Shown here in pieces: positions 11,675 through 62,286 of a DNA stretch of 64,000 nt (its first letter is position 1; each line of letters starts with the position of its first letter). The position numbers and the translations under genes were made by a program. Below the pieces are notes generated by a model. That model saw only the letters and a list, made by a program, of their open reading frames with translations. It searched no databases and was not told the DNA's origin. The stretch comes from Selenomonadaceae bacterium (GTDB taxonomy: Bacteria > Bacillota > Negativicutes > Selenomonadales > Selenomonadaceae): contig JAFSOQ010000061.1 of NCBI GenBank assembly GCA_017446845.1, positions 1 through 64,000 on the forward strand, read 5' to 3'.

Positions 11675-11689
11675 AGATAAGCCTCCGGT

Positions 11690-11768
11690 TTAGGATTTAG
11701 GATTTAGGAATTAGGATTTAGGAGTTAGGATTTAGGGTTTTGAATTTTTAATTCCTACTTCCTAATTG
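11690..11768. repeat. Heptamer array between def and cbiE
   Basis: Seven consecutive 7-bp units from 11690: TTAGGAT, TTAGGAT, TTAGGAA, TTAGGAT, TTAGGAG, TTAGGAT, TTAGGGT. The opposite sense follows (AATTCCTACTTCCTAATT, about 11750-11767), so the transcript could fold on itself. The array occupies the divergent def/cbiE gap and starts about 4 bases from the def ribosome site. Confidence 0.9.
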
Positions 11769-12928: not shown

Positions 12929-12963
12929 AATTAGGAATTAGGAATTAGGAAGTAGGAATTAGA
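12929..12963. repeat. Heptamer array 3' of the omega-RNA-like element
   Basis: AATTAGG, AATTAGG, AATTAGG, AAGTAGG, AATTAGA. It starts directly after the TnpB-like reading frame and its stop codon lies in the first unit. A complementary-sense stretch (TTCCCTTGTCCCTAATCA, about 12982-12999) follows. Confidence 0.85.
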
Positions 12964-13127
12964 AATGAAAAACTTTTCCCGATTCCCTTGTCCCTAATCA
13001 CTTTTTACAAGTTCTCAGTAACGGCAATTTGTTTCCGGCTTGCTTTTCACAGCGAGCAATTCAAAAATCTTTTTTCAGTGAGCCGTAACTCAAAAGAGGC
13101 ACGGCACAAGAAGGGAGTACTTTTTAC

Positions 13128-24897: not shown

Positions 24898-26187
24898 ATG
24901 GAAAAATATTTTATGGCGGCCATGGGCGGCGCGGACGGTTTCGGCAACAAAAGTATTGAAAAGCTCATAAATTTTTGCGGCAGTGCCAAAGCTGCATGGT
25001 CGTCCGACATTGACGACATTGTCCATGCGGGAATTCAATCAAGACACCTTGAAGCTTTCGTCGCCTTCCGCGGCAAGCATCCCAACGCGCCCGAAAATCT
25101 CGTCAAGTATTGCGAGCGGCACGAATTTAATTTGTGCTCAATCAACGACGAAGATTATCCGCCGATTCTCAAAGAAATTGATTCGCCGCCTATGTTTTTC
25201 TATTATCGCGGAAAACTTCAGCCGCATGTGCAGAGGATTGGCATTGTCGGTTCTCGTCACAATACGCCATACGGACAAAATGTCGCGTTGCAACTCGCCG
25301 AAGAACTTGCGGCGGCAGGTTTGACTGTCGTAAGCGGCGCGGCTCGCGGCATTGATACTTTTGCGCATCGCGGCGCATTGAAGTCAGGGCGTACTGTTGC
25401 TGTACTCGGTTGCGGAATAGATATTGCCTTCCGCAGCGGCAAAAGAAAATTTTTGGAGGAGATTGCCGAAACCGGCGTTGTCCTCAGCGAATTTCCTCCG
25501 CAACTTCCGCCGAACACCGGAACTTTTCCGACACGCAACAGAATTATTGCGGGGCTTAGTCTCGGAATTGTCGTCGTGGAAGCCGATTTCAAAAGCGGCG
25601 CGTTGATTACGAGCACTTACGCCGGCGATTACGGTCGCGATGTTTTTGCAGTTCCGGGGCAAGTTTACGCTCAGATGAGTCGCGGTTGCAATGAATTGAT
25701 TCGCGACGGCGCAACCTTGATTAAAAGCGCGCAAGATATTTTAAACGAATACGATATTGCCGTCAAAGATAAACCTGAATCCGAGCCGATTTCTTTGGAC
25801 GACGCGGAAGCTAAAGTTTTGGAGGTCATTCCGTTCGATAATTACATTACGAGCGACGAAATTTTAATGAAACTCGACGACCTTGACCTTGACGAGATTG
25901 ATAATATTTTGATAAATCTTGAGATGAAAAAATGCATAGAAGATAATTTCGGACGATACAAACGCAATGCAATCAAATCTAAACCCGCAAAGAAAATTTC
26001 TTTGGACGACACAGAGGCTAAAGTTTTGGAGGTCATTCCGTTCGATAATTACATTACGAGCGACGAAATTTTAATGAAACTCGACGACCTTGACCTTGAC
26101 GAGCTTGATAATATTTTGATAAATCTTGACCTAAAAAAATGTATAGAGGAAAATTTGGGAAGATACAAACGCAAGATTGGAGGTTGA
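24898..26187 (+). CDS. dprA: DNA processing protein DprA with duplicated C-terminal domain
   Basis: A 429-residue DprA/Smf protein that loads RecA on incoming single-stranded DNA in transformation. The Rossmann core has IGIVGSRHNTPYGQNVALQL, VVSGAARGIDTFAHRGALKS, GCGIDI and FPTRNRIIAGLSLGIVVVEA. At the C-terminus the winged-helix domain is present twice: residues about 298-355 and 367-424 are nearly identical (KVLEVIPFDNYITSDEILMK; LDDLDLDE). Start 24898 is ATG without a clear ribosome site, because a heptamer array abuts it; Met at 24913 is an alternative. Followed by the topA-like gene, the usual Firmicutes order. Confidence 0.92.
   Translation: MEKYFMAAMGGADGFGNKSIEKLINFCGSAKAAWSSDIDDIVHAGIQSRHLEAFVAFRGKHPNAPENLVKYCERHEFNLCSINDEDYPPILKEIDSPPMFFYYRGKLQPHVQRIGIVGSRHNTPYGQNVALQLAEELAAAGLTVVSGAARGIDTFAHRGALKSGRTVAVLGCGIDIAFRSGKRKFLEEIAETGVVLSEFPPQLPPNTGTFPTRNRIIAGLSLGIVVVEADFKSGALITSTYAGDYGRDVFAVPGQVYAQMSRGCNELIRDGATLIKSAQDILNEYDIAVKDKPESEPISLDDAEAKVLEVIPFDNYITSDEILMKLDDLDLDEIDNILINLEMKKCIEDNFGRYKRNAIKSKPAKKISLDDTEAKVLEVIPFDNYITSDEILMKLDDLDLDELDNILINLDLKKCIEENLGRYKRKIGG
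25788..26174 (+). repeat. Tandem duplication of the dprA C-terminal domain
   Basis: Two copies (25788-25967 and 25995-26174) repeat with a period of exactly 207 bases (69 codons). Differences are few (for instance GATTGAT against GCTTGAT), so the duplication is recent or maintained by conversion. Confidence 0.85.
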
Positions 26188-26191
26188 ACGC

Positions 26192-27829
26192 GTGGCAGAA
26201 AAAAATTTAAAGTCATTGATATTGGTCGAGAACGCGTCCAAAATGCGAACGCTCAAAAAGTTTATCGGGCGAAATTATACGGTGGAATCGACGGACGGTT
26301 TCTTGAAAGATTTGCCCAAAAGTCGAATCGGTGTAAGCGACGATTATCAGCCCGACTATATCACGGTGCGCGGCAAAGGTTCTCTCTTCGCCGAACTTCG
26401 ACGCAAAACTTTGAACGCCCGCAGAATTTTTATCGCGACCAATCCCGACACGCAGGGAGAATTTTTGGCGCGGCAATACTGTGAAATTTTCGGCATCAAT
26501 CCGAATTCGCATTGCAGAATTTCTTTGAACGAACTCACCAAGGAAAATTTCAAGACGGCGTTCGAGGCGGCACGACCGATTGACGAAAATTTGGCGGAGT
26601 CTTTTCAAGCCAAGCAGTTGATTGACAAATACGTCAGCCACAAAGTCGGGGAATATCTCGCCAGAAAAATTTGGCAAGGCGTAAAAGTTGGCAGATTCCG
26701 CGCAATGCTCTTGAAATTAATCGCCGCTCCGCCCGCGCAGAAAAATTTGACGGTCAAGAAAAATTTGACGGCGGCGACGCTTCAGGAACTCGCATTCAAG
26801 GAATTAAATTTTTCGGTGGCGTGGACCAGATTTATCGCCGACCAACTTTACGACGGAGTAACTTTAGCCAAAAGAGATTGCACGGGCTTGATTACTTATC
26901 CTCACGGCGGAGAAATTTTCTTGACGAGTGAACATCGCGAGCCGGAATCCGTTAAAGAATTTTTGACCGAACATCAATTCAAACTCTACGATTTAATTTA
27001 CAATCATCAAGACAAGAAAAAAATTTTCAAACTCGACGGCACGACGAACGACGCGGCTTTGATGGCTGCATTCGACGCGCTCGGCGTGGAGTGGGCAGAA
27101 TTTTATTCTGTGGGGATTGCCAGCCTTATCAAACGCAAATACATCACGGCGGAGGATTCCGTTTACAAAGTCACTGCGCTCGGCGAACGTGTCCTTGACG
27201 CGCTGAACGGTTTCTTCGACGACGTGTTCAGTGCAAAATCTTATAATGAGGTCACCGCGCAGGTTAAGGAAATTGCGGCGGGCAATGCTCAAAAAATTTC
27301 CGTCATAGGAAATTATTGCGCGAAGTTCAATGAAAAATTTGATGAGGCGATGAATTCGCTCGGCGAAGATGCTCAACCGCAAAAAGAACCCGTCGTTGAG
27401 TCCGATAAAATTTGCGACAAGTGCGGGCGCAAAATGTTGATTAAGCATGGTCGCTACGGAGGATTTTTGGCGTGTTCGGGCTATCCCGATTGCAAAAATA
27501 CAAAGCCGCTGCTTGAGCCGACAAATAAAAAATGTCCGAAGTGCGGCGGGCATTTGGCTAAGCGGTCATTTAATTTCAACAGAGCTTTTTACTGCTGTGA
27601 GTCGTGTGATTTTTCGACTTGGGACGAACCTCAAGCAATGACTTGCAAAACGTGCGGCTCGACGATGTTTGCACACAAATTCAGAGGACGTGCGCCGATG
27701 TTCTATTGCGGCAATGAAAATTGTTCGACGCGAACGAATCACCCGATAAATAAAATTTTGGAGCAGATAAAGAATCGCGCCGAAACTCGCAAAAAAAAAT
27801 CGGCGGCTAAGAAAAATGACAACAAATAA
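26192..27829 (+). CDS. Topoisomerase IA (TopA)-like protein with altered catalytic motifs
   Basis: 545 residues in the normal topA position between dprA and trmFO. The Toprim domain begins [20 protein letters not shown] and keeps the first Glu, but the usual DPDREGE block reads NPDTQGE (residues 84-90), so two of the three acidic metal ligands are amides. The tyrosine block GLITYMRTDS reads GLITYPHGG (Tyr236 kept, the following Arg lost). Three C-terminal zinc ribbons are intact ([36 protein letters not shown]). It is shorter than TopA (about 690-870). GTG 26192 is preferred, 8 bases after GGAGG; TTG 26177 overlaps it. It may bind DNA without normal relaxation activity. Confidence 0.75.
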
Positions 27830-29129
27830 AAAAGTTCACGTTATCGGCGCGGGCTTGGCAGGTTCGGAGGCGGCGTGGCAAATCGCAAAATGCGGCGTCG
27901 AAGTCGTCTTGCACGAGATGCGCCCGACTAAAAAAACTCCCGCGCACAAAACCGGAAACTTCGCCGAACTCGTCTGCAGCAATTCATTGCGGGCGGCGGG
28001 CTTGTCAAATGCTGTCGGCGTTTTAAAAGAGGAAATGCGCCGGTTGGATTCGTTGATAATGTCGGCGGCGGACGCAACAAAAATTCCTGCGGGCGGCGCG
28101 TTGGCTGTCGACAGAAATGAATTCGGGCGTTTCGTCACGGAAAAAGTTAAATCGGTCGTTCAATTCGTCGAAGAGGAAGTTACGAGCCTCGACTTTGACG
28201 ACGTGTTGATTGTCGCGAGCGGACCTTTGACGGCGGGCGCACTTGCCGACGAAATTAAAAAAATCACGGGCGGCGACGATTTTTATTTTTACGATGCGGC
28301 GGCTCCGATTGTCACGCTTGATTCGATTGATTTTTCCAAAGCGTTCAAAGCCTCTCGCTACGACAAGGGCGCGGACGATTCTTACATAAATTGTCCCATG
28401 ACCCGCGAAGAATATTTGAATTTCCGCGCAGAATTGATTGCCGCCGAAAAAACCAAGCCGCATGATTTTGAGCAAGAAATTTTTTTTGAAGGTTGCTTGC
28501 CCGTGGAAGTTTTGGCGGCGCGCGGAGAAGATACGATGCGTTTCGGAAATTTAAAACCTGTCGGCTTGACTGACCCGCGCACCGGAAAAATTCCTTATGC
28601 GGTCGTTCAACTGCGGCAGGACAATCGGGAGGCGACGCTTTATAATTTGGTCGGCTTTCAAACGCATTTGACTTGGGGCGAACAAAAACGCGTTTTCAAA
28701 ATGATTCCGGGACTTGAGGCGGCGGAATTTGTAAGATTCGGCGTCATGCACAGAAACACTTACATAAACTCGCCGAAAATTTTATTGCCGACGTTTCAAC
28801 TTAAAAACTCGCCGAAAATATTTTTCGCGGGACAAATCACGGGCGTCGAAGGTTACGTAGAATCGGCGGCATCAGGATTGATGGCGGGCATCAACGCGGC
28901 GCGATTGGTAAAAAATTTGGAGCCGATAATTTTCCCGCCGACGACTTGTCACGGAGCACTTGCGAATTACATAACGACGGCGGTCGCGAAAAATTTTCAG
29001 CCGATGAATATAACGTTCGGATTGTTGCCGCCGCTCGAAACTCGCACGAAAAAAAATCTCCGCAAAGAAAAATTATCTGCGCGGGCGTTGGAGACAATTG
29101 GGAATTTGGAATTGGGAATGGGGAATTAA
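27816..29129 (+). CDS. trmFO: Folate-dependent tRNA (uracil-54-C5) methyltransferase TrmFO
   Basis: Makes ribothymidine at tRNA position 54 using methylene-tetrahydrofolate and FADH2. The 437-residue product has the FAD-binding [40 protein letters not shown], and the C-terminal [20 protein letters not shown]. Start overlaps the topA-like gene by 14 bases. The last ten residues ([10 protein letters not shown]) are coded by a 7-bp repeat array, so the C-terminus is an added tail rather than family sequence. The usual next gene xerC is missing; hslV follows directly. Confidence 0.92.
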
Positions 29130-42107: not shown

Positions 42108-42680
42108 ATGGCTGAAAGCATAAGAATTACAACGCCGTTCACCGAGGAAATGTCGCGCAAACTCAAAGCAGGCGACAGCGTCCTTATTACCGGCACGATT
42201 ATCAGCGCAAGAGACGCCGCCCATAAAGTCATGACGGAAGCTCTTGCACGCGGCGAAAAATTGCCCGTCGATTGGAATAATCAAATTGTCTACTATCTCG
42301 GTCCCACACCCGCCAAGCCGGGCGACCCGATTGGTTCTTGCGGTCCGACGACTTCGGGCAGAATGGACGCTTATACTCCGACTATGCTTGACCAGGGAAT
42401 TAAAGGCATGGTCGGCAAAGGTTCGCGCACAAAAGAAGTCGTTGAGGCTATGAAGAAAAACGGCGCAACTTATTTTGCGGCTGTCGGCGGCGCGGCAGCT
42501 TTAATCGCCAAATCCGTTAAAAGTTACACCGTGCTTGCTTATCCCGAACTCGGTCCGGAGGCTGTGGCGGCTTTGGAAGTCGTCGATTTCCCCGCTATTG
42601 TCGTTATCGATTGCCAAGGAAATAATTTCTACGAAATCGGGCAAAAGGATTATCGCCACTTCGACATTAATCAAATCTAG
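42108..42680 (+). CDS. Class I fumarase, beta subunit
   Basis: A 190-residue C-terminal subunit: ITTPFTEEMSRKLKAGDSVL, SARDAAHKVMTEALARGEKL, LGPTPAKPGDPIGSCGPTTS and a late PAIVVIDCQGNNFYEIGQKD. These are swivelling-domain motifs of class I hydrolyases. AAAGGAG lies 9 bases before ATG 42108. The partner alpha subunit precedes it. Could also act on tartrate in some homologues, but the fumarase-SDH clustering favours fumarate. Confidence 0.9.
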   Translation: MAESIRITTPFTEEMSRKLKAGDSVLITGTIISARDAAHKVMTEALARGEKLPVDWNNQIVYYLGPTPAKPGDPIGSCGPTTSGRMDAYTPTMLDQGIKGMVGKGSRTKEVVEAMKKNGATYFAAVGGAAALIAKSVKSYTVLAYPELGPEAVAALEVVDFPAIVVIDCQGNNFYEIGQKDYRHFDINQI

Positions 42681-42749
42681 GATTTGGGAGTTAGGATTTA
42701 GGAGTTAGGGGGTTTCCTCTAAATCCTAAATCCTATATCCCAAATCCTC
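42679..42749. repeat. Heptamer array with inverted arm before sdhC
   Basis: AGGATTT, GGGAGTT, AGGATTT, AGGAGTT, AGGGGGT and then the opposite sense AAATCCT, AAATCCT, ATATCCC, AAATCCT. It overlaps the fumarase beta stop codon and fills the gap to sdhC. Confidence 0.9.
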
Positions 42750-43409: not shown

Positions 43410-45221
43410 ATGGCTAAAGATATGACTAAGAAACAAATTATAATCGTCGGCGGCGGAATTTCGGGTTTGCTCGCTACGATTAAGGTTTGCGAACTTGGCG
43501 GCGAGGTCTTGCTGTTCTCCTATTGTCCCGTCAAGCGTTCGCACTCTCTTTGCGCTCAAGGCGGCATGAATGCCTGCATGGACACCAAAGGCGAACACGA
43601 CAGCATTTACGAACATTTCGACGATACGGTTTACGGCGGCGACTTCCTTGCCGACCAACTCGCGGTCAAAGGCATGGTCGAGGCGGCTCCGAAATTAATT
43701 AAGATGCTCGACCGTATGGGTGTCACATTCACGCGCACGCCTGAAGGCAATTTGGACTTGCGCAACTTCGGCGGACAGAAAAATAAGCGTACATGTTTTT
43801 CAGGCTCCACGACAGGTCAGCAAATTCTCTACGCACTTGATGAGCAAGTTCGTCGTTGGGAAGTCAAAGGTTCCGTCAAAAAATATGAGTTCTGGGAATT
43901 CATCAAGATTATAAAGAATAAAGAAGGCATTTGCCGCGGTATCGTCGCGCAGAGCATGAACAGCATGGAAATTAAATCGTTCCGCGCAGATACGGTTATT
44001 CTCGCGACGGGCGGTCCCGGTCAAGTGTTCGGACGTTGCACGGCGTCGACGATTTGTAACGGCTCGGCAGTCAGCGCAGTTTATCAGCAAGGCGCGGAAA
44101 TTGCCAATCCCGAATTTATCCAGATTCACCCGACGGCAATCCCCGGTTCCGATAAAAATCGTTTGATGTCGGAAGCATGTCGCGGCGAAGGCGGTCGCGT
44201 TTGGGTTTATAAAGACGGTAAGCCCTGGTACTTCCTTGAGGAAATGTATCCCGCTTACGGCAACCTTGTTCCGCGTGACGTTGCAAGCCGCGCAATTTTC
44301 AAAGTCTGTGTGCACATGGGACTTGGCATTAACGGCGAGAACAGAGTTTATCTCGACCTGTCACACATCGACGGCGATTATCTCTTGAGAAAACTCGGCG
44401 GCATTTTGGAAATGTATTCGGAATTCGTCGGACAAGACCCGCGTAAAGTTCCCATGGAAATTTTCCCCAGCGTCCATTACTCCATGGGCGGCATTTGGGT
44501 TGACAGATTCCACTTTACAAATATTCCGGGGCTTATGGCGTCGGGCGAGTGCGACTATCAATATCACGGCGCGAATCGTCTCGGTGCGAATTCACTTTTG
44601 AGCGCGGCTTATTCGGGAACTGTTTCCGGTCCCGAAGCTATGAAGTGGGCTAAAAGCGGCAAGAACGGTTCCGAACTTTCCGACGACGAATTGGAAGCGG
44701 CTCGCAAGGAAGTTCAGAACGAATACGATAAAATTTTGCAGATGAACGGCTCCGAAAATGCTCACAAGCTTCATCACGAAATGGGCGACTTAATGTATAA
44801 ATACGTCGCTATCGAACGCGATAACAACGGTTTGGATATTTGCCTCGGCGAGCTGAAAAAATTGCTCAAGCGTTGGGACGACATAGGCGTTACCGACAGA
44901 GGCAACGTCGCCAATCAGGAGGCAATGTTCGTTCGTCAGCTGCGCAATATGATTCTTTACGCAATGGCTATCACGAAAGGTGCTCGTTGCCGTGATGAGT
45001 CTCGCGGTGCTCATGCAAAAATCGTTCTCGAAAACGGTCAGCGTAAACACGACGAGAACGGCGACCTTGTCTTCATGGGACGCGACGATAAAAACTTCAT
45101 GTTCACGACGATTATCAACTACGACCCCAAGACCGAGGAGCCGATTGTTTCTTATCGTGAGTTCGACCACTCGTTGATTAAGCCGCGTGCCCGCAACTAC
45201 GCCGTCGCCAAGAAGGAGTGA
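43410..45221 (+). CDS. sdhA: Succinate dehydrogenase/fumarate reductase flavoprotein subunit
   Basis: A 603-residue FAD subunit. IIIVGGGISGLLATIKVCEL is the dinucleotide fold; the FAD-binding His region reads KRSHSLCAQGGMNACMDTKG; the active-site arginines and His lie in IQIHPTAIPGSDKNRLMSEA, RGEGG and YHGANRLGANSLLSA. Its length fits the epsilon-proteobacterial/Bacillus-type class. ATG 43410 follows a TAGGAG site. Closely spaced with sdhC (18 bases) and separated from sdhB by a heptamer array. Confidence 0.94.
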   Translation: MAKDMTKKQIIIVGGGISGLLATIKVCELGGEVLLFSYCPVKRSHSLCAQGGMNACMDTKGEHDSIYEHFDDTVYGGDFLADQLAVKGMVEAAPKLIKMLDRMGVTFTRTPEGNLDLRNFGGQKNKRTCFSGSTTGQQILYALDEQVRRWEVKGSVKKYEFWEFIKIIKNKEGICRGIVAQSMNSMEIKSFRADTVILATGGPGQVFGRCTASTICNGSAVSAVYQQGAEIANPEFIQIHPTAIPGSDKNRLMSEACRGEGGRVWVYKDGKPWYFLEEMYPAYGNLVPRDVASRAIFKVCVHMGLGINGENRVYLDLSHIDGDYLLRKLGGILEMYSEFVGQDPRKVPMEIFPSVHYSMGGIWVDRFHFTNIPGLMASGECDYQYHGANRLGANSLLSAAYSGTVSGPEAMKWAKSGKNGSELSDDELEAARKEVQNEYDKILQMNGSENAHKLHHEMGDLMYKYVAIERDNNGLDICLGELKKLLKRWDDIGVTDRGNVANQEAMFVRQLRNMILYAMAITKGARCRDESRGAHAKIVLENGQRKHDENGDLVFMGRDDKNFMFTTIINYDPKTEEPIVSYREFDHSLIKPRARNYAVAKKE

Positions 45222-45281
45222 TTAGCGATTAGTGATTAGCGATTAGTGGTTAGAATTTCTAGTCCCTAGTTCCTAGTTCCT
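45220..45281. repeat. Heptamer array with inverted arm between sdhA and sdhB
   Basis: GATTAGC, GATTAGT, GATTAGC, GATTAGT, GGTTAGA, then TCTAGTC, CCTAGTT, CCTAGTT, CCTA. It begins at the sdhA stop codon and ends before the AAAGGAG of sdhB. Confidence 0.9.
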
Positions 45282-45308
45282 AAAAATCGACTGAAAGGAG
45301 ATTTTTTC

Positions 45309-53470: not shown

Positions 53471-55030
53471 ATGCTGAAAAAATTTTTCTTGACGCTCGCT
53501 GTAATTTTTTTCCTCATGCCGAGCGTTTACGCTGAAAGAATTTTATTCATTCCGCACGACGACCGCCCTGTTTCTTCTCAACATCCCGCTGATGTCGTCG
53601 CTCAGCTCGGTTACGAAGTTATTTCGCCGCCGACCGAACTTTTGACGCAGCCCGAAGAACTTTGGGCTTGGTTTTTCGAGAACGCACCTTTCGCGAATGC
53701 CGCAGTTGTCTCCTCTGACGCGCTGCTTTACAAAGGTTTGATTCCTTCGCGCTCTCACGAAATTCCCGCGGAAGTTTTAAATTCTCGCGTCGAAAATTTT
53801 AAAATCCTCCGTGAAAAAAATCCGAATCTCAATTTATATCTTTTCGGCTCGCTTATGCGTACTCCTCATGTCGGCACGCCGGGTGACCGCGAAGAACCTG
53901 CCTATTACGGGCAATACGGCACGCAAATTTTCCAACTCACCAGGCTTTTGGATAAGCAGGAAATTTCCAAACTCAGCGGCGCGGAGAAAAAATATCTCGC
54001 CGAACTTGAAAAGGCAATTCCCGACGAAATTTTGGACGATTGGTTCGCTCGTCGGGCAAAAAATCTTGCCGCCACGAAAAAACTTTTGGACTTCACGCAC
54101 GACGATATTATTAACTTTTTTATCATCGGTCGCGACGATAACGCCCCGCTCAGTCAAACTCACCGCGAAAATCGTCAGCTGCTCGAATACATGAAAAATA
54201 TTCCGAAGACTAAGGCTCAATCGCACGCCGGCATTGATGAATTTGCCATGTTGCTTTTAACTCGCGCCGTAAATGATTTAAATTGCGACCTGCCCTTCGT
54301 AAATGTTCAATTTAATCGCGGCGTCGGCGCAAAAACTATCCCGCATTACTCCGACGAGGAAATTGGGCAGTCAATTCGCGACGAAATCGTAATTGCGGGT
54401 GGCATGTTCGTTCCCAAGCCCGAACGCGCCGATTTTGTCCTCTACGTCAATACCGACCCTAAAGGCAATAATTACGAGCCGCACAATTCCTGCCCGCCGG
54501 TACCTTTGAGTAAAAAAATGGAAAAATATTTTGCTCGCAACGCTGAATATTTCTCCGCAATGGTTGAGGACGCCGTTAATAAAAATTTGCCCGTCGGTAT
54601 CGCCGATATTATTGACGCGAACGGCGCAGATAATTTTTTGATGGAGCAACTCTATGAGAAAAATTTGCTCTTCAAGCTGCAGGCTTACGGCGGCTGGAAT
54701 ACTGCGACCAATACTTCGGGCTTTGCAATCGGCACGGGAATTCTCGCAAAAAAAATGAGCCGTCACTCGATTGACAGACTCCTTGCCACGCGCTACCTCG
54801 ACGATTGGGCTTATCAGGCAAACGTCCGCACCCAAATCGCCGATTACCTTACGAAATATCCGAATCCCTATTCAATTTTCTTGAACCTTAGAGAATATGA
54901 GCCGGAAGTCGTCAAGCGCAAAAATGTTCTTATGCACGAGTTCGCCGTCAAGTATTTTCCTCAGTGGAATAATTTTGTTGTCTCGAATCCGTGGCACAGA
55001 ATGTTTGAGTGCCGAATTGACTTTGACTAA
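53471..55030 (+). CDS. DUF4127 family exported protein
   Basis: A 519-residue protein with a Sec signal peptide (FFLTLAVIFFLMPSVYA, residues 5-21). ILFIPHDDRPVSSQHPADVV is the hallmark beginning of DUF4127; SSDALLYKGLIPSRSHEIP, FIIGRDDNAPLSQTHRENR and YGGWNTATNTSGFAIGTGIL are further conserved blocks. The family is of unknown function, found in Firmicutes, and the Asp/His-rich blocks suggest a hydrolase. AAGGAGG site 7 bases before ATG 53471. Its 3' end overlaps the convergent hypF by 83 bases. Confidence 0.85.
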   Translation: MLKKFFLTLAVIFFLMPSVYAERILFIPHDDRPVSSQHPADVVAQLGYEVISPPTELLTQPEELWAWFFENAPFANAAVVSSDALLYKGLIPSRSHEIPAEVLNSRVENFKILREKNPNLNLYLFGSLMRTPHVGTPGDREEPAYYGQYGTQIFQLTRLLDKQEISKLSGAEKKYLAELEKAIPDEILDDWFARRAKNLAATKKLLDFTHDDIINFFIIGRDDNAPLSQTHRENRQLLEYMKNIPKTKAQSHAGIDEFAMLLLTRAVNDLNCDLPFVNVQFNRGVGAKTIPHYSDEEIGQSIRDEIVIAGGMFVPKPERADFVLYVNTDPKGNNYEPHNSCPPVPLSKKMEKYFARNAEYFSAMVEDAVNKNLPVGIADIIDANGADNFLMEQLYEKNLLFKLQAYGGWNTATNTSGFAIGTGILAKKMSRHSIDRLLATRYLDDWAYQANVRTQIADYLTKYPNPYSIFLNLREYEPEVVKRKNVLMHEFAVKYFPQWNNFVVSNPWHRMFECRIDFD

Positions 55031-57248
55031 CGTAAACCGCTTGACCGAGACAAATTCCGCCGTCGTTGGGCGGGATAAGTTCATGACGTAAAATTTTTAA
55101 ACTTCGACGACGCAATTTTTCAATCGTCAACGAAGTCAGCAACGAATTTTGAAATACGCCGCCGCTCAATGCGACGGTTTTTATTTTTGTTAGCTCGCTT
55201 ATCTCAAAAACTTTTTGCGCAGTCATTTCGGCAAGTCGTTCGTGAAATAATCTTGCCAAGTCGCAAATATTTTCTCCGTTCATGCGTCGAGTTAAAATCT
55301 CGTCAAAAATTTCGTTTGTCGTCATGTAGGAACCGGGAACCGGGAACTGGGAACTAGATTTTTCGGCGGCGGCTTGAAGTTTCATCGCGGCTTCACCTTC
55401 GTAGCTCGAAACTTTGCAAATATCCAAAATCGCGGCTACTGCGTCGAAAATTCTGCCGACACTCGTCGAACGCACGCAATTTATATTTTTATCAAGCAAA
55501 AATTTTTGTCCGAGTAAATTTTTTTCGTCGGCAAGATTTAACTCGCGGGCAAGCTCAAAATTTTTCATCAGCGCAACGGCAATGCGCCAACCTTCGCGCG
55601 AAGATTTATCGCCGCCCGCTTGAGTAAACGGTTTAATCGACGCGACGCGCTCAAAATTTTTCGTGTCGCAAATAAAAAATTCGCCGCCCCAAATCGTGCC
55701 GTCAAGTCCGTAGCCCGTGCCGTCGAACGCAACGCCGATAACTTCGCCGTGAAAATTATTTTCCGCCATGCAACTCAAAATGTGCGCGTAGTGATGCTGA
55801 ACTTTAATCAGCGGCAAGTCAAATTCCTTAGAAATTTTTTCGGCAAGTGCGGTCGTCTGATAGCGCGGGTGTAAATCGCAGGCAATGACTTCGGGATTAA
55901 TCTCAAGCAAATTTTTCATGCGGGCAATCGATTTTTCCAAAACTTCAACGGTGCGCAGGTCGCTGACGTCTCCGATATACGGCGAGGCATAAAATAAATT
56001 GTTCTTCGCGAGGCAAAAAGTGTTCTTGAGTTCGCCGCCAATCGCCAAGACGGATTTTTTATTTGAATCGTAAAAAATCGGGAGCGGAGCAAATCCTCGA
56101 CTGCGCCGAATCATCGACGGTCGGTCGTCTATAAAGTCCATGACGGAATCATCTGCGCGGAGTAAAATTTTTCTGTCGTGACTTAGAATCGCGTCGCAGT
56201 AATCAAAATTTTTCTGCGCGTCATCGTCATCAATCGTAATCGGCACGCCCGAAGGATTTCCGCTCGTCATAATCAGCGCGTCGGGAAAATTTTTAAGCTC
56301 GTCCGGAAAATCAAAGATTAAAAGATGTAACGGCGTATAAGGCAGCATGACACCGAGTTTATTTATATCGGGCGCAACGTTTTCAGCGATTGAGCCGATT
56401 TTTTTTCGCAAAAGTACGATTGGCTTTTGAGGACTGTCCAAAAAAGATTTTTCTACGTCGGATAAAAAACATTCGCGTTCGACGGCGGCAATATCTTTGA
56501 ACATGACGGCAAAAGGTTTTGTCGGACGAGTTTTTGAATCGCGCAACTTTTGAACGGCTGAAAAATTTCTCGCGTCGCAAGCCAAATGAAAGCCGCCGAT
56601 ACCTTTTATCGCGACAATTCCGCCGTCCGCCAAAATTTTTCTGACGTGACGAATCGCATCCCAATTCCTAATTCCTAATTCCTCATTCCCAATTAAATAA
56701 ACTTCGGGACCGCAATCGTTGCAACAAATCGGCTGAGCGTCAAAGCGTCGGCTGTTCGGATTAAAATATTCTTCGGCGCAAGAATCGCACATGGGAAAAT
56801 CACTCATGGAAGTGCGTTCGCGGTCGTAAGGCATATTTTTTAAAATGGTCAAGCGCGGACCGCAAGCCGTGCAATTTATAAACGGGTGCAGATATCGGCG
56901 GTCATTCGGATTAAAAAGTTCTTCCTTGCATTTTTCGCAGATTGCAATGTCGGGCGAAACGAAAATATCTCCCGCCTCGTGAACGCTGTCGATAATTTGG
57001 AAGTCGGAAAATTTTTTATCGGGCAAATTATTCACGTCGACCTTTAAAATTGCCGAGCGCGGAGGATTTTTAGTTTGGAGCGCGTCTAAAAAATTTTTCA
57101 AGTCAAAGTCGGAACCTTGAGCAAAAATTTCGACGTAAGAGCCGCGATTGGCGACGGTGCCGACGATTTTAAATTCATTGGCGATTCGGCTGACGAACGG
57201 TCGAAAGCCGACGCCTTGCACAATCCCGAAAATTTTTATGTTGAGCAA
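54948..57248 (-). CDS. hypF: Carbamoyltransferase HypF, with repeat-derived insertions
   Basis: Makes the thiocarbamate used for the CN ligands of NiFe hydrogenase. The 766-residue product has an acylphosphatase domain (residues 1-90, GIVQGVGFRPFVSRIANEF), two zinc-finger pairs (CEKCKEELFNPNDRRYLHPF, CDSCAEEYFNPNSRR, CCNDCGP), a YrdC-like domain (GIGGFHLACDARNFSAVQKL) and a Kae1-like domain (VQHHYAHILSCMAEN). Two 7-bp arrays lie in frame and code NEELGIRNW (about 187-195) and SQFPVPGS (about 632-640). The C-terminal 30 residues past GGICLGQAVY overlap the DUF4127 gene. No other hyp gene is near. Confidence 0.9.
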   Translation of the reverse strand: MLNIKIFGIVQGVGFRPFVSRIANEFKIVGTVANRGSYVEIFAQGSDFDLKNFLDALQTKNPPRSAILKVDVNNLPDKKFSDFQIIDSVHEAGDIFVSPDIAICEKCKEELFNPNDRRYLHPFINCTACGPRLTILKNMPYDRERTSMSDFPMCDSCAEEYFNPNSRRFDAQPICCNDCGPEVYLIGNEELGIRNWDAIRHVRKILADGGIVAIKGIGGFHLACDARNFSAVQKLRDSKTRPTKPFAVMFKDIAAVERECFLSDVEKSFLDSPQKPIVLLRKKIGSIAENVAPDINKLGVMLPYTPLHLLIFDFPDELKNFPDALIMTSGNPSGVPITIDDDDAQKNFDYCDAILSHDRKILLRADDSVMDFIDDRPSMIRRSRGFAPLPIFYDSNKKSVLAIGGELKNTFCLAKNNLFYASPYIGDVSDLRTVEVLEKSIARMKNLLEINPEVIACDLHPRYQTTALAEKISKEFDLPLIKVQHHYAHILSCMAENNFHGEVIGVAFDGTGYGLDGTIWGGEFFICDTKNFERVASIKPFTQAGGDKSSREGWRIAVALMKNFELARELNLADEKNLLGQKFLLDKNINCVRSTSVGRIFDAVAAILDICKVSSYEGEAAMKLQAAAEKSSSQFPVPGSYMTTNEIFDEILTRRMNGENICDLARLFHERLAEMTAQKVFEISELTKIKTVALSGGVFQNSLLTSLTIEKLRRRSLKILRHELIPPNDGGICLGQAVYVSQSQFGTQTFCATDSRQQNYSTEENT
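55328..55357. repeat. Heptamer array inside hypF (second insertion)
   Basis: AGGAACC, GGGAACC, GGGAACT, GGGAACT, AG on the forward strand; coding on the reverse strand for SQFPVPGS between KLQAAAEKS and YMTTNEIF. Confidence 0.85.
56660..56694. repeat. Heptamer array inside hypF (first insertion)
   Basis: CCCAATT, CCTAATT, CCTAATT, CCTCATT, CCCAATT on the forward strand; coding on the reverse strand for LIGNEELGIRNW between the last zinc finger and the YrdC-like domain. Confidence 0.9.
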
Positions 57249-62171: not shown

Positions 62172-62202
62172 AAAAAATCTCCCTTTGGTCGATTTTTAGG
62201 GA
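62172..62202 (-). promoter_or_regulatory. Shared leader hairpin covering the ribosome site, copy 2
   Basis: Reverse strand: TCCCT (62202-62198) pairs with AGGGA (62184-62180), the latter part of the Shine-Dalgarno. The 31 bases match the leader at 22530-22562 with one change. Confidence 0.45.
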
Positions 62203-62281
62203 AGTAGCAGTTAGGGAAGTAGGGAATTAGCTTTATACTACTTCCCTATTTCTCTACTAACCTAATTCCCTGCTAACCTAT
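62198..62281. repeat. Heptamer array with inverted arm between telA and the small membrane gene
   Basis: AGGGAAG, TAGCAGT, TAGGGAA, GTAGGGA, ATTAGCT and opposite sense TACTTCC, CTATTTC, TCTACTA, ACCTAAT, TCCCTGC, TAACCTA. Degenerate but mostly in 7-bp phase; fills the gap. Confidence 0.75.
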
Positions 62282-62286
62282 TTTTG

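Follow-up and report, generated by a model that had tools for sequence, protein, structure and literature searches.

The window analysed here, 64,000 nucleotides in length, comes from a 2.19-Mb metagenome-assembled genome (G000) whose close relatives include Quinella, a group of large rumen bacteria of the Selenomonadaceae, and the host of the array described below was placed in this genus. The window contains a hypF gene, for which Pfam returned an acylphosphatase domain, two zf-HYPF domains, YrdC (residues 204 to 382), HypF_C and HypF_C_2. Five tandem units of 7 nt (site 1) occupy the stretch that joins the second zinc finger to the YrdC domain; they read CCCAATT CCTAATT CCTAATT CCTCATT CCCAATT on the forward strand and ATTGGGA ATGAGGA ATTAGGA ATTAGGA ATTGGGA on the coding strand. 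The array is flanked by the TTA codon of L184, begins at codon 185 in frame 0 and encodes IGNEELGIRNW plus two bases of D196. Tandem Repeats Finder called it at 56659 to 56694 with period 7 and 5.1 copies. Both the sequence and this call confirmed the original prediction, which had placed five 7-bp units within the hypF coding strand and had stated that they keep the reading frame.

In the AlphaFold model of HypF, site 1 forms a loop with locally lowered pLDDT (77 for residues 181 to 190, against a mean of 90), and the alignment with the HypF of known structure, 3VTH, is gapped at this position. CCYAATTCCYAATT occurs 5 times in the window, where 0.01 is expected; the genome contains 145 copies of it and none of the reversed control. 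An assembly artefact is an unlikely origin of the array, which is also present in other metagenome-assembled genomes of the genus (L070 and L053). A further in-frame array in hypF, absent from the original prediction, was located at site 5; its units read GGAACCG on the forward strand, and in the model it falls in the coil formed by residues 628 to 642. These and the other features of the window are listed in Table 1.

Table 1. Positions of hypF and of period-7 and period-8 arrays in the window
Feature	Position	Strand	Source
hypF (hydrogenase maturation carbamoyltransferase), 766 aa, complete	54948..57248	-	ORF + Pfam
Site 1, five-unit heptamer array, HypF residues 185-196, zf-YrdC linker	56660..56694	-	Sequence, Tandem Repeats Finder, AlphaFold loop
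Site 5, second in-frame hypF array (AGTTCCC/GGTTCCC units), residues ~631-639, Kae1-like domain loop	55329..55355	-	
Array forming the C-terminus of the GidA/TrmFO-like ORF (27816-29129)	29096..29126	+	
Intergenic heptamer hairpin between two genes	42678..42748	.	Tandem Repeats Finder + G063 comparison
Intergenic heptamer hairpin	45217..45282	.	Tandem Repeats Finder + G063 comparison
Intergenic heptamer array + inverted partner (TTTAGGA units)	11689..11764	.	Tandem Repeats Finder
Heptamer array, same word as hypF (AATTAGG)	12929..12966	.	Tandem Repeats Finder
Inverted array pair, period ~8 (TAGGGAAG / CTTCCCTA type)	62197..62283	.	Tandem Repeats Finder

A pure AATTAGG array of at least 3 units contains an unavoidable TAG in every frame. 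At site 1 the TAG phase is reached by units 2 and 5 only, and both deviate from ATTAGGA (TGAGG and TTGGG, respectively). Restoring ATTAGGA creates a stop in unit 2 or 5 and none in units 1, 3 and 4; unit 1 also carries TTGGG, without any coding need. The stop-avoiding words are common minor words of the G000 arrays (GGAATGA, 10, and GGAATTG, 18, versus 41 for GGAATTA). Since these variants are common throughout the genome, a fitting variant could have been copied ready-made instead of arising by mutation.

Alignment of close HypF proteins, the check proposed with the original prediction, showed that the array residues are missing from array-free relatives, which have GKN---LRGH in their place, and no repeat-free homologue with identical residues was found in this comparison. 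More than 25 HypF genes of the genus are array-free and encode YLLGKN---LRGHDAI or a similar sequence, where the window HypF has YLIGNEELGIRNWDAI; the array-free linker is different in sequence and 3 residues shorter. Outgroups share the array-free length, which is probably the ancestral one. The clean insertion boundary that had been expected was not seen. The site 1 array measures 35 nt but the gene has grown by just 9 nt, which rules out a clean 35-bp insertion and indicates that approximately 26 nt of resident sequence was overwritten. The other HypF sites behave likewise, with arrays of 27 to 36 nt and net gains of ~6 to 21 nt, the gain being smaller than the array everywhere.

The repeats belong to a dispersed family. 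We sampled 442 kb of G000 (~20% of the genome) on contigs with pattern hits and found 103 arrays of period 7, compared with 0 to 2 for each of periods 5, 6, 8 to 11 and 13; the resulting density, ~233/Mb, is approximate and, like all densities from such sampling, may be biased upward. The commonest words in these arrays are GGAGTTA, GGATTTA and GGAATTA, and the presence of at least three common words rules out concerted evolution towards one word per genome. A rough gene caller, which called 81% of the sequence as coding, placed 85 of the 103 arrays in intergenic spacers, a count that includes both hypF arrays by mistake because the caller failed to call that gene. Stems scoring at least 12 were present in 62 of the 85 intergenic arrays, versus 1 of 103 shuffled arrays and 1 of 13 genic arrays. 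Most intergenic arrays are hairpins made of inverted pairs, and genic arrays are single arms, of 25 to 58 nt; the best stem at hypF site 1 scores 6, with no hairpin.

Array content varies widely within the genus, from 139 to 316/Mb in six sampled genomes to 0 to 10/Mb in six others. One heptamer 16-mer ranged from 0 to 281 copies over 66 genus genomes, with a nearly empty reversed control, and was almost absent from the class beyond the genus. The Y1 transposase (PF01797) was absent from the 74%-complete G000 and present in 7 of the 66 genus genomes; its presence did not correlate with arrays, and a Y1/REP transposase was rejected as the driver. The orthologous spacers of G063 also carry hairpins at the positions of 42678-42748 and 45217-45282, built from other words, while the flanking genes are ~86% identical; at the former locus the words differ in both arms. 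One hairpin was found in G063 only. Broken synteny limited the number of orthologous intergenic loci that could be compared with relatives in this way. Period-8 arrays (TTCCCTAx) coexist with the heptamers, as in the hairpin at 62197-62283.

Arrays recur in hypF itself. A panel of 88 HypF coding sequences (189 kb) contained 24 arrays of period 7, 2 of period 8 and none of periods 5, 6, 9, 10 or 11. The period-7 arrays are confined to four sites, at residues ~183-186, ~278-282, ~393 and ~630, and the two of period 8 (TTCCCTAx, in L054 and L045) lie in frame at residue ~313; all of these sites are loops in the AlphaFold model. The HypF of L107 has a 28-residue insertion or duplication at residue ~393, ending in a second KFSVLAI. 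The words at a given loop differ between species: AATTAGG, AGTTAGG and AATTAAG at site 1; GGGACAA, GGGACTA and GGAACTA at site 2; and GTTCCCG, AATGCGT, AGTGGTC, CTACTCA and AGTCCCA at site 5.

Site 2 (residues 279-287) is occupied in six alleles (L041, L042, L050, L052, L054 and L107), which differ in their words. Grouping its carriers as one clade was rejected (AU p 6e-125), which rules out shared descent of these arrays, and the tree needs at least 5 changes at this site. At site 1 the tree needs six changes, and carriers of the window type (WIN) and of the L060 type are separate, with one clade not rejected (p 0.07). Comparison of carrier flanks at sites 1 and 2 revealed no excess similarity and no signal of shared flanks or recombination. 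Because its carriers are not a single clade and lack a shared-flank signal, the site 2 array has been gained repeatedly. The same six alleles have one common array length and 7-nt register.

We compared the words in HypF with the vocabulary of each genome. Of 22 genomes, only the two with ACTACTC in HypF had tandems of that word (89 and 48 copies), and AGTGGTC was commonest (51 copies) in the genome of L061, whose HypF carries it. AATTAAG tandems were most frequent in G065 (137) and G062 (65), which likewise bear the word in HypF, and the genomes of GGGACWA and AATGCGW carriers ranked 2 to 5 of 22 and 3 to 4, respectively. The hypF arrays are included in these counts but contribute only a few. 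Summed over four words, the match was reached in 0 of 200,000 random assignments and in 208 of 200,000 when shuffling was restricted to carrier genomes, figures that serve as a guide rather than as exact probabilities because the panel was built around carriers and its genomes share ancestry. The match of HypF words to the vocabulary of their own genome argues that the repeats spread within genomes into genes, and the simplest reading of these sequences is that each HypF array derives from the same genome.

HypF is not the only protein affected. About a dozen further ORFs in the 20% genome sample have in-frame arrays, and the carriers include HisD, an ABC-F ATPase, DUF512 and radical-SAM-DUF2344 proteins, a peptidase U32 and a GidA/TrmFO-like protein. 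In the last of these, the final 11 codons and the stop lie inside the array. In histidinol dehydrogenase (HisD; L131, 17075-18409, minus strand) the array occupies residues 79-89, within the Pfam domain. Together with the match between words and genomes, these ORFs back the original claim that the repeats spread into genes and generate new protein segments. Separately, ORF 24898-26187 contains a 207-bp tandem repeat (25789-26174, 1.9 copies, 93%) corresponding to a 69-residue protein repeat.

We consider that site 1 is probably one arm of the dispersed Quinella heptamer family, a copy from its own genome that overwrote a HypF loop in frame. A gap or stalled fork (break) in the gene would be filled by copying from another of the hundreds of chromosomal arrays, possibly primed by microhomology such as a TTA or CTA codon matching the word. 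Some 13 to 28 nt of resident sequence would be lost on copying, and the copied array could then be tuned by slippage. Selection would retain copies that have a frame-restoring length, units off the TAG/TAA phase and a location in a surface loop, and the HypF segment would be a tolerated by-product rather than an evolved linker with a known task. We infer the copying step, since no array was traced from donor to recipient among close strains; own-genome words, overwriting, repeated gain and the constraint imposed by frame and loops are observed. The common register and length of the six site 2 alleles need a fixed anchor or another rule and count against ectopic copying. Existing arrays may in addition undergo in-register conversion, as is suggested by the sequences of L041 and L053, which are distinguished at site 1 by one A-to-G change that recurs, at an unchanged position, in each of the four available units (for 4 of 5 random changes, P is about 1.6e-4). 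Simple point mutation and slippage do not give such a change, whereas in-register conversion would. The minor words of L041 (GGAGGTA and GGAGTGA) are typical of its own genome.

Plain replication slippage of a chance heptamer inside each gene, with no copying between loci, is an unlikely alternative: tandem repeats usually arise in this way, and among repeats of 5 to 11 nt the heptanucleotide class is the most frequent in many genomes (Mrazek et al., cited by PMC4679880), but slippage from local seeds predicts neither a word match to the other arrays of the genome, nor differing words at one loop, nor the overwriting of unrelated sequence. Exchange of hypF array alleles among Quinella species through homologous recombination, followed by divergence, is also improbable. 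The 35-nt length and the stop-avoiding units that WIN, L070, L053 and L041 have in common at site 1, and the single clade left standing there, are what such exchange would give, whereas the carrier flanks without excess similarity and the own-genome words at sites 2 and 5 are not. The identical length in these four species, together with impure units, also speaks against a phase-variation (contingency) locus in which gain and loss of 7-nt units switches HypF and hence hydrogenase activity. One unit more or less would indeed put the gene out of frame, and other bacteria are well known to use repeat-driven switching, but the frame is open at site 1 in every HypF examined and most arrays are intergenic hairpins, and we regard this explanation as very unlikely. 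Protein-level selection for a special linker peptide of the ELGIRN type, with the DNA periodicity incidental, is extremely unlikely: WIN, L070 and L053 do have a common peptide, yet other carriers encode unrelated peptides at the same loops with words that follow the genome, and array-free relatives manage without it.

A dedicated enzyme or RNA-templated process that writes heptamer words and rewrites them in place would agree with the strict period of 7, the genome-specific vocabularies, the same-phase change in all units of L041 relative to L053 and the other words found in both arms of orthologous hairpins. A check of the Y1 transposase, which is absent from G000 and from 59 of the 66 genus genomes, yielded no candidate gene, however, and ordinary ectopic gene conversion could account for much of the same evidence; as a rival account of site 1, such a process has little likelihood. 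We see a slim chance that a specific process, carried out by an enzyme and perhaps templated by a nucleic acid, writes a 7-base vocabulary particular to each genome into the chromosome and rewrites arrays word by word in register, coding loops included. Readers of these proteins should note that ELGIRNW-like sequence in them is repeat-derived.

Among known systems, the Rickettsia palindromic elements (RPEs) form a dispersed palindromic family of ~100-150 bp and conserved sequence, found in frame at tolerated surface positions of conserved proteins. Like RPEs, the Quinella arrays occupy conserved protein genes in frame at tolerated positions, in loops of HypF and also in HisD, ABC-F and other proteins. 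Unlike RPEs, the HypF arrays are 27-36 nt long, change their words and overwrite resident sequence, and there is no conserved palindrome of ~100-150 bp. They differ from REP/RAYT elements in that G000 lacks, as far as its 74% completeness reaches, the REP-associated Y1 transposase.

The P6b element of the Nostoc trnL (tRNA-Leu UAA) intron has heptamer repeats in both arms of a hairpin, and whole arrays there were swapped between two motif classes several independent times (PMC4476775). The intergenic Quinella arrays similarly place complementary heptamer arms in stems, and the Nostoc motif TDNGATT resembles Quinella words. However, the Nostoc repeats concern one cyanobacterial group I intron locus, no protein genes and only two word classes, whereas the Quinella arrays are located in hypF and intergenic spacers and not in a group I intron. 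The TAACTGA direct repeats, patchily distributed in Beggiatoaceae, cyanobacteria and Bacteroidetes, are dispersed, short and mostly intergenic, with a few copies inside ORFs, at protein ends (MacGregor 2015, PMC4679880). The Quinella arrays are likewise short, dispersed, mostly intergenic and patchy. In contrast to TAACTGA, which is present as one word per genome, with related heptamers rare and the repeats direct only (one indirect), they comprise many words in mostly inverted pairs, with mid-protein copies in conserved enzymes, and TAACTGA is not their dominant unit. Heptanucleotides are also the dominant unit in the survey class of long simple sequence repeats (5-11 nt; Mrazek 2007, cited in PMC4679880), which lacks hairpin anatomy, genome vocabularies and recurrent overwriting of loops. 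The Quinella genome paper makes no mention of the repeats, and a description of the present combination, in which genome-specific vocabularies of many words have repeatedly overwritten the same loops of one enzyme, was not found in the literature searched. The Quinella arrays offer a recurrent experiment of nature in the conversion of non-coding repeats into protein sequence, with the vocabulary as a label of origin, and comparison of many Quinella genomes makes the origin of protein loop insertions, the spread of heptamers and the reason for period seven testable.
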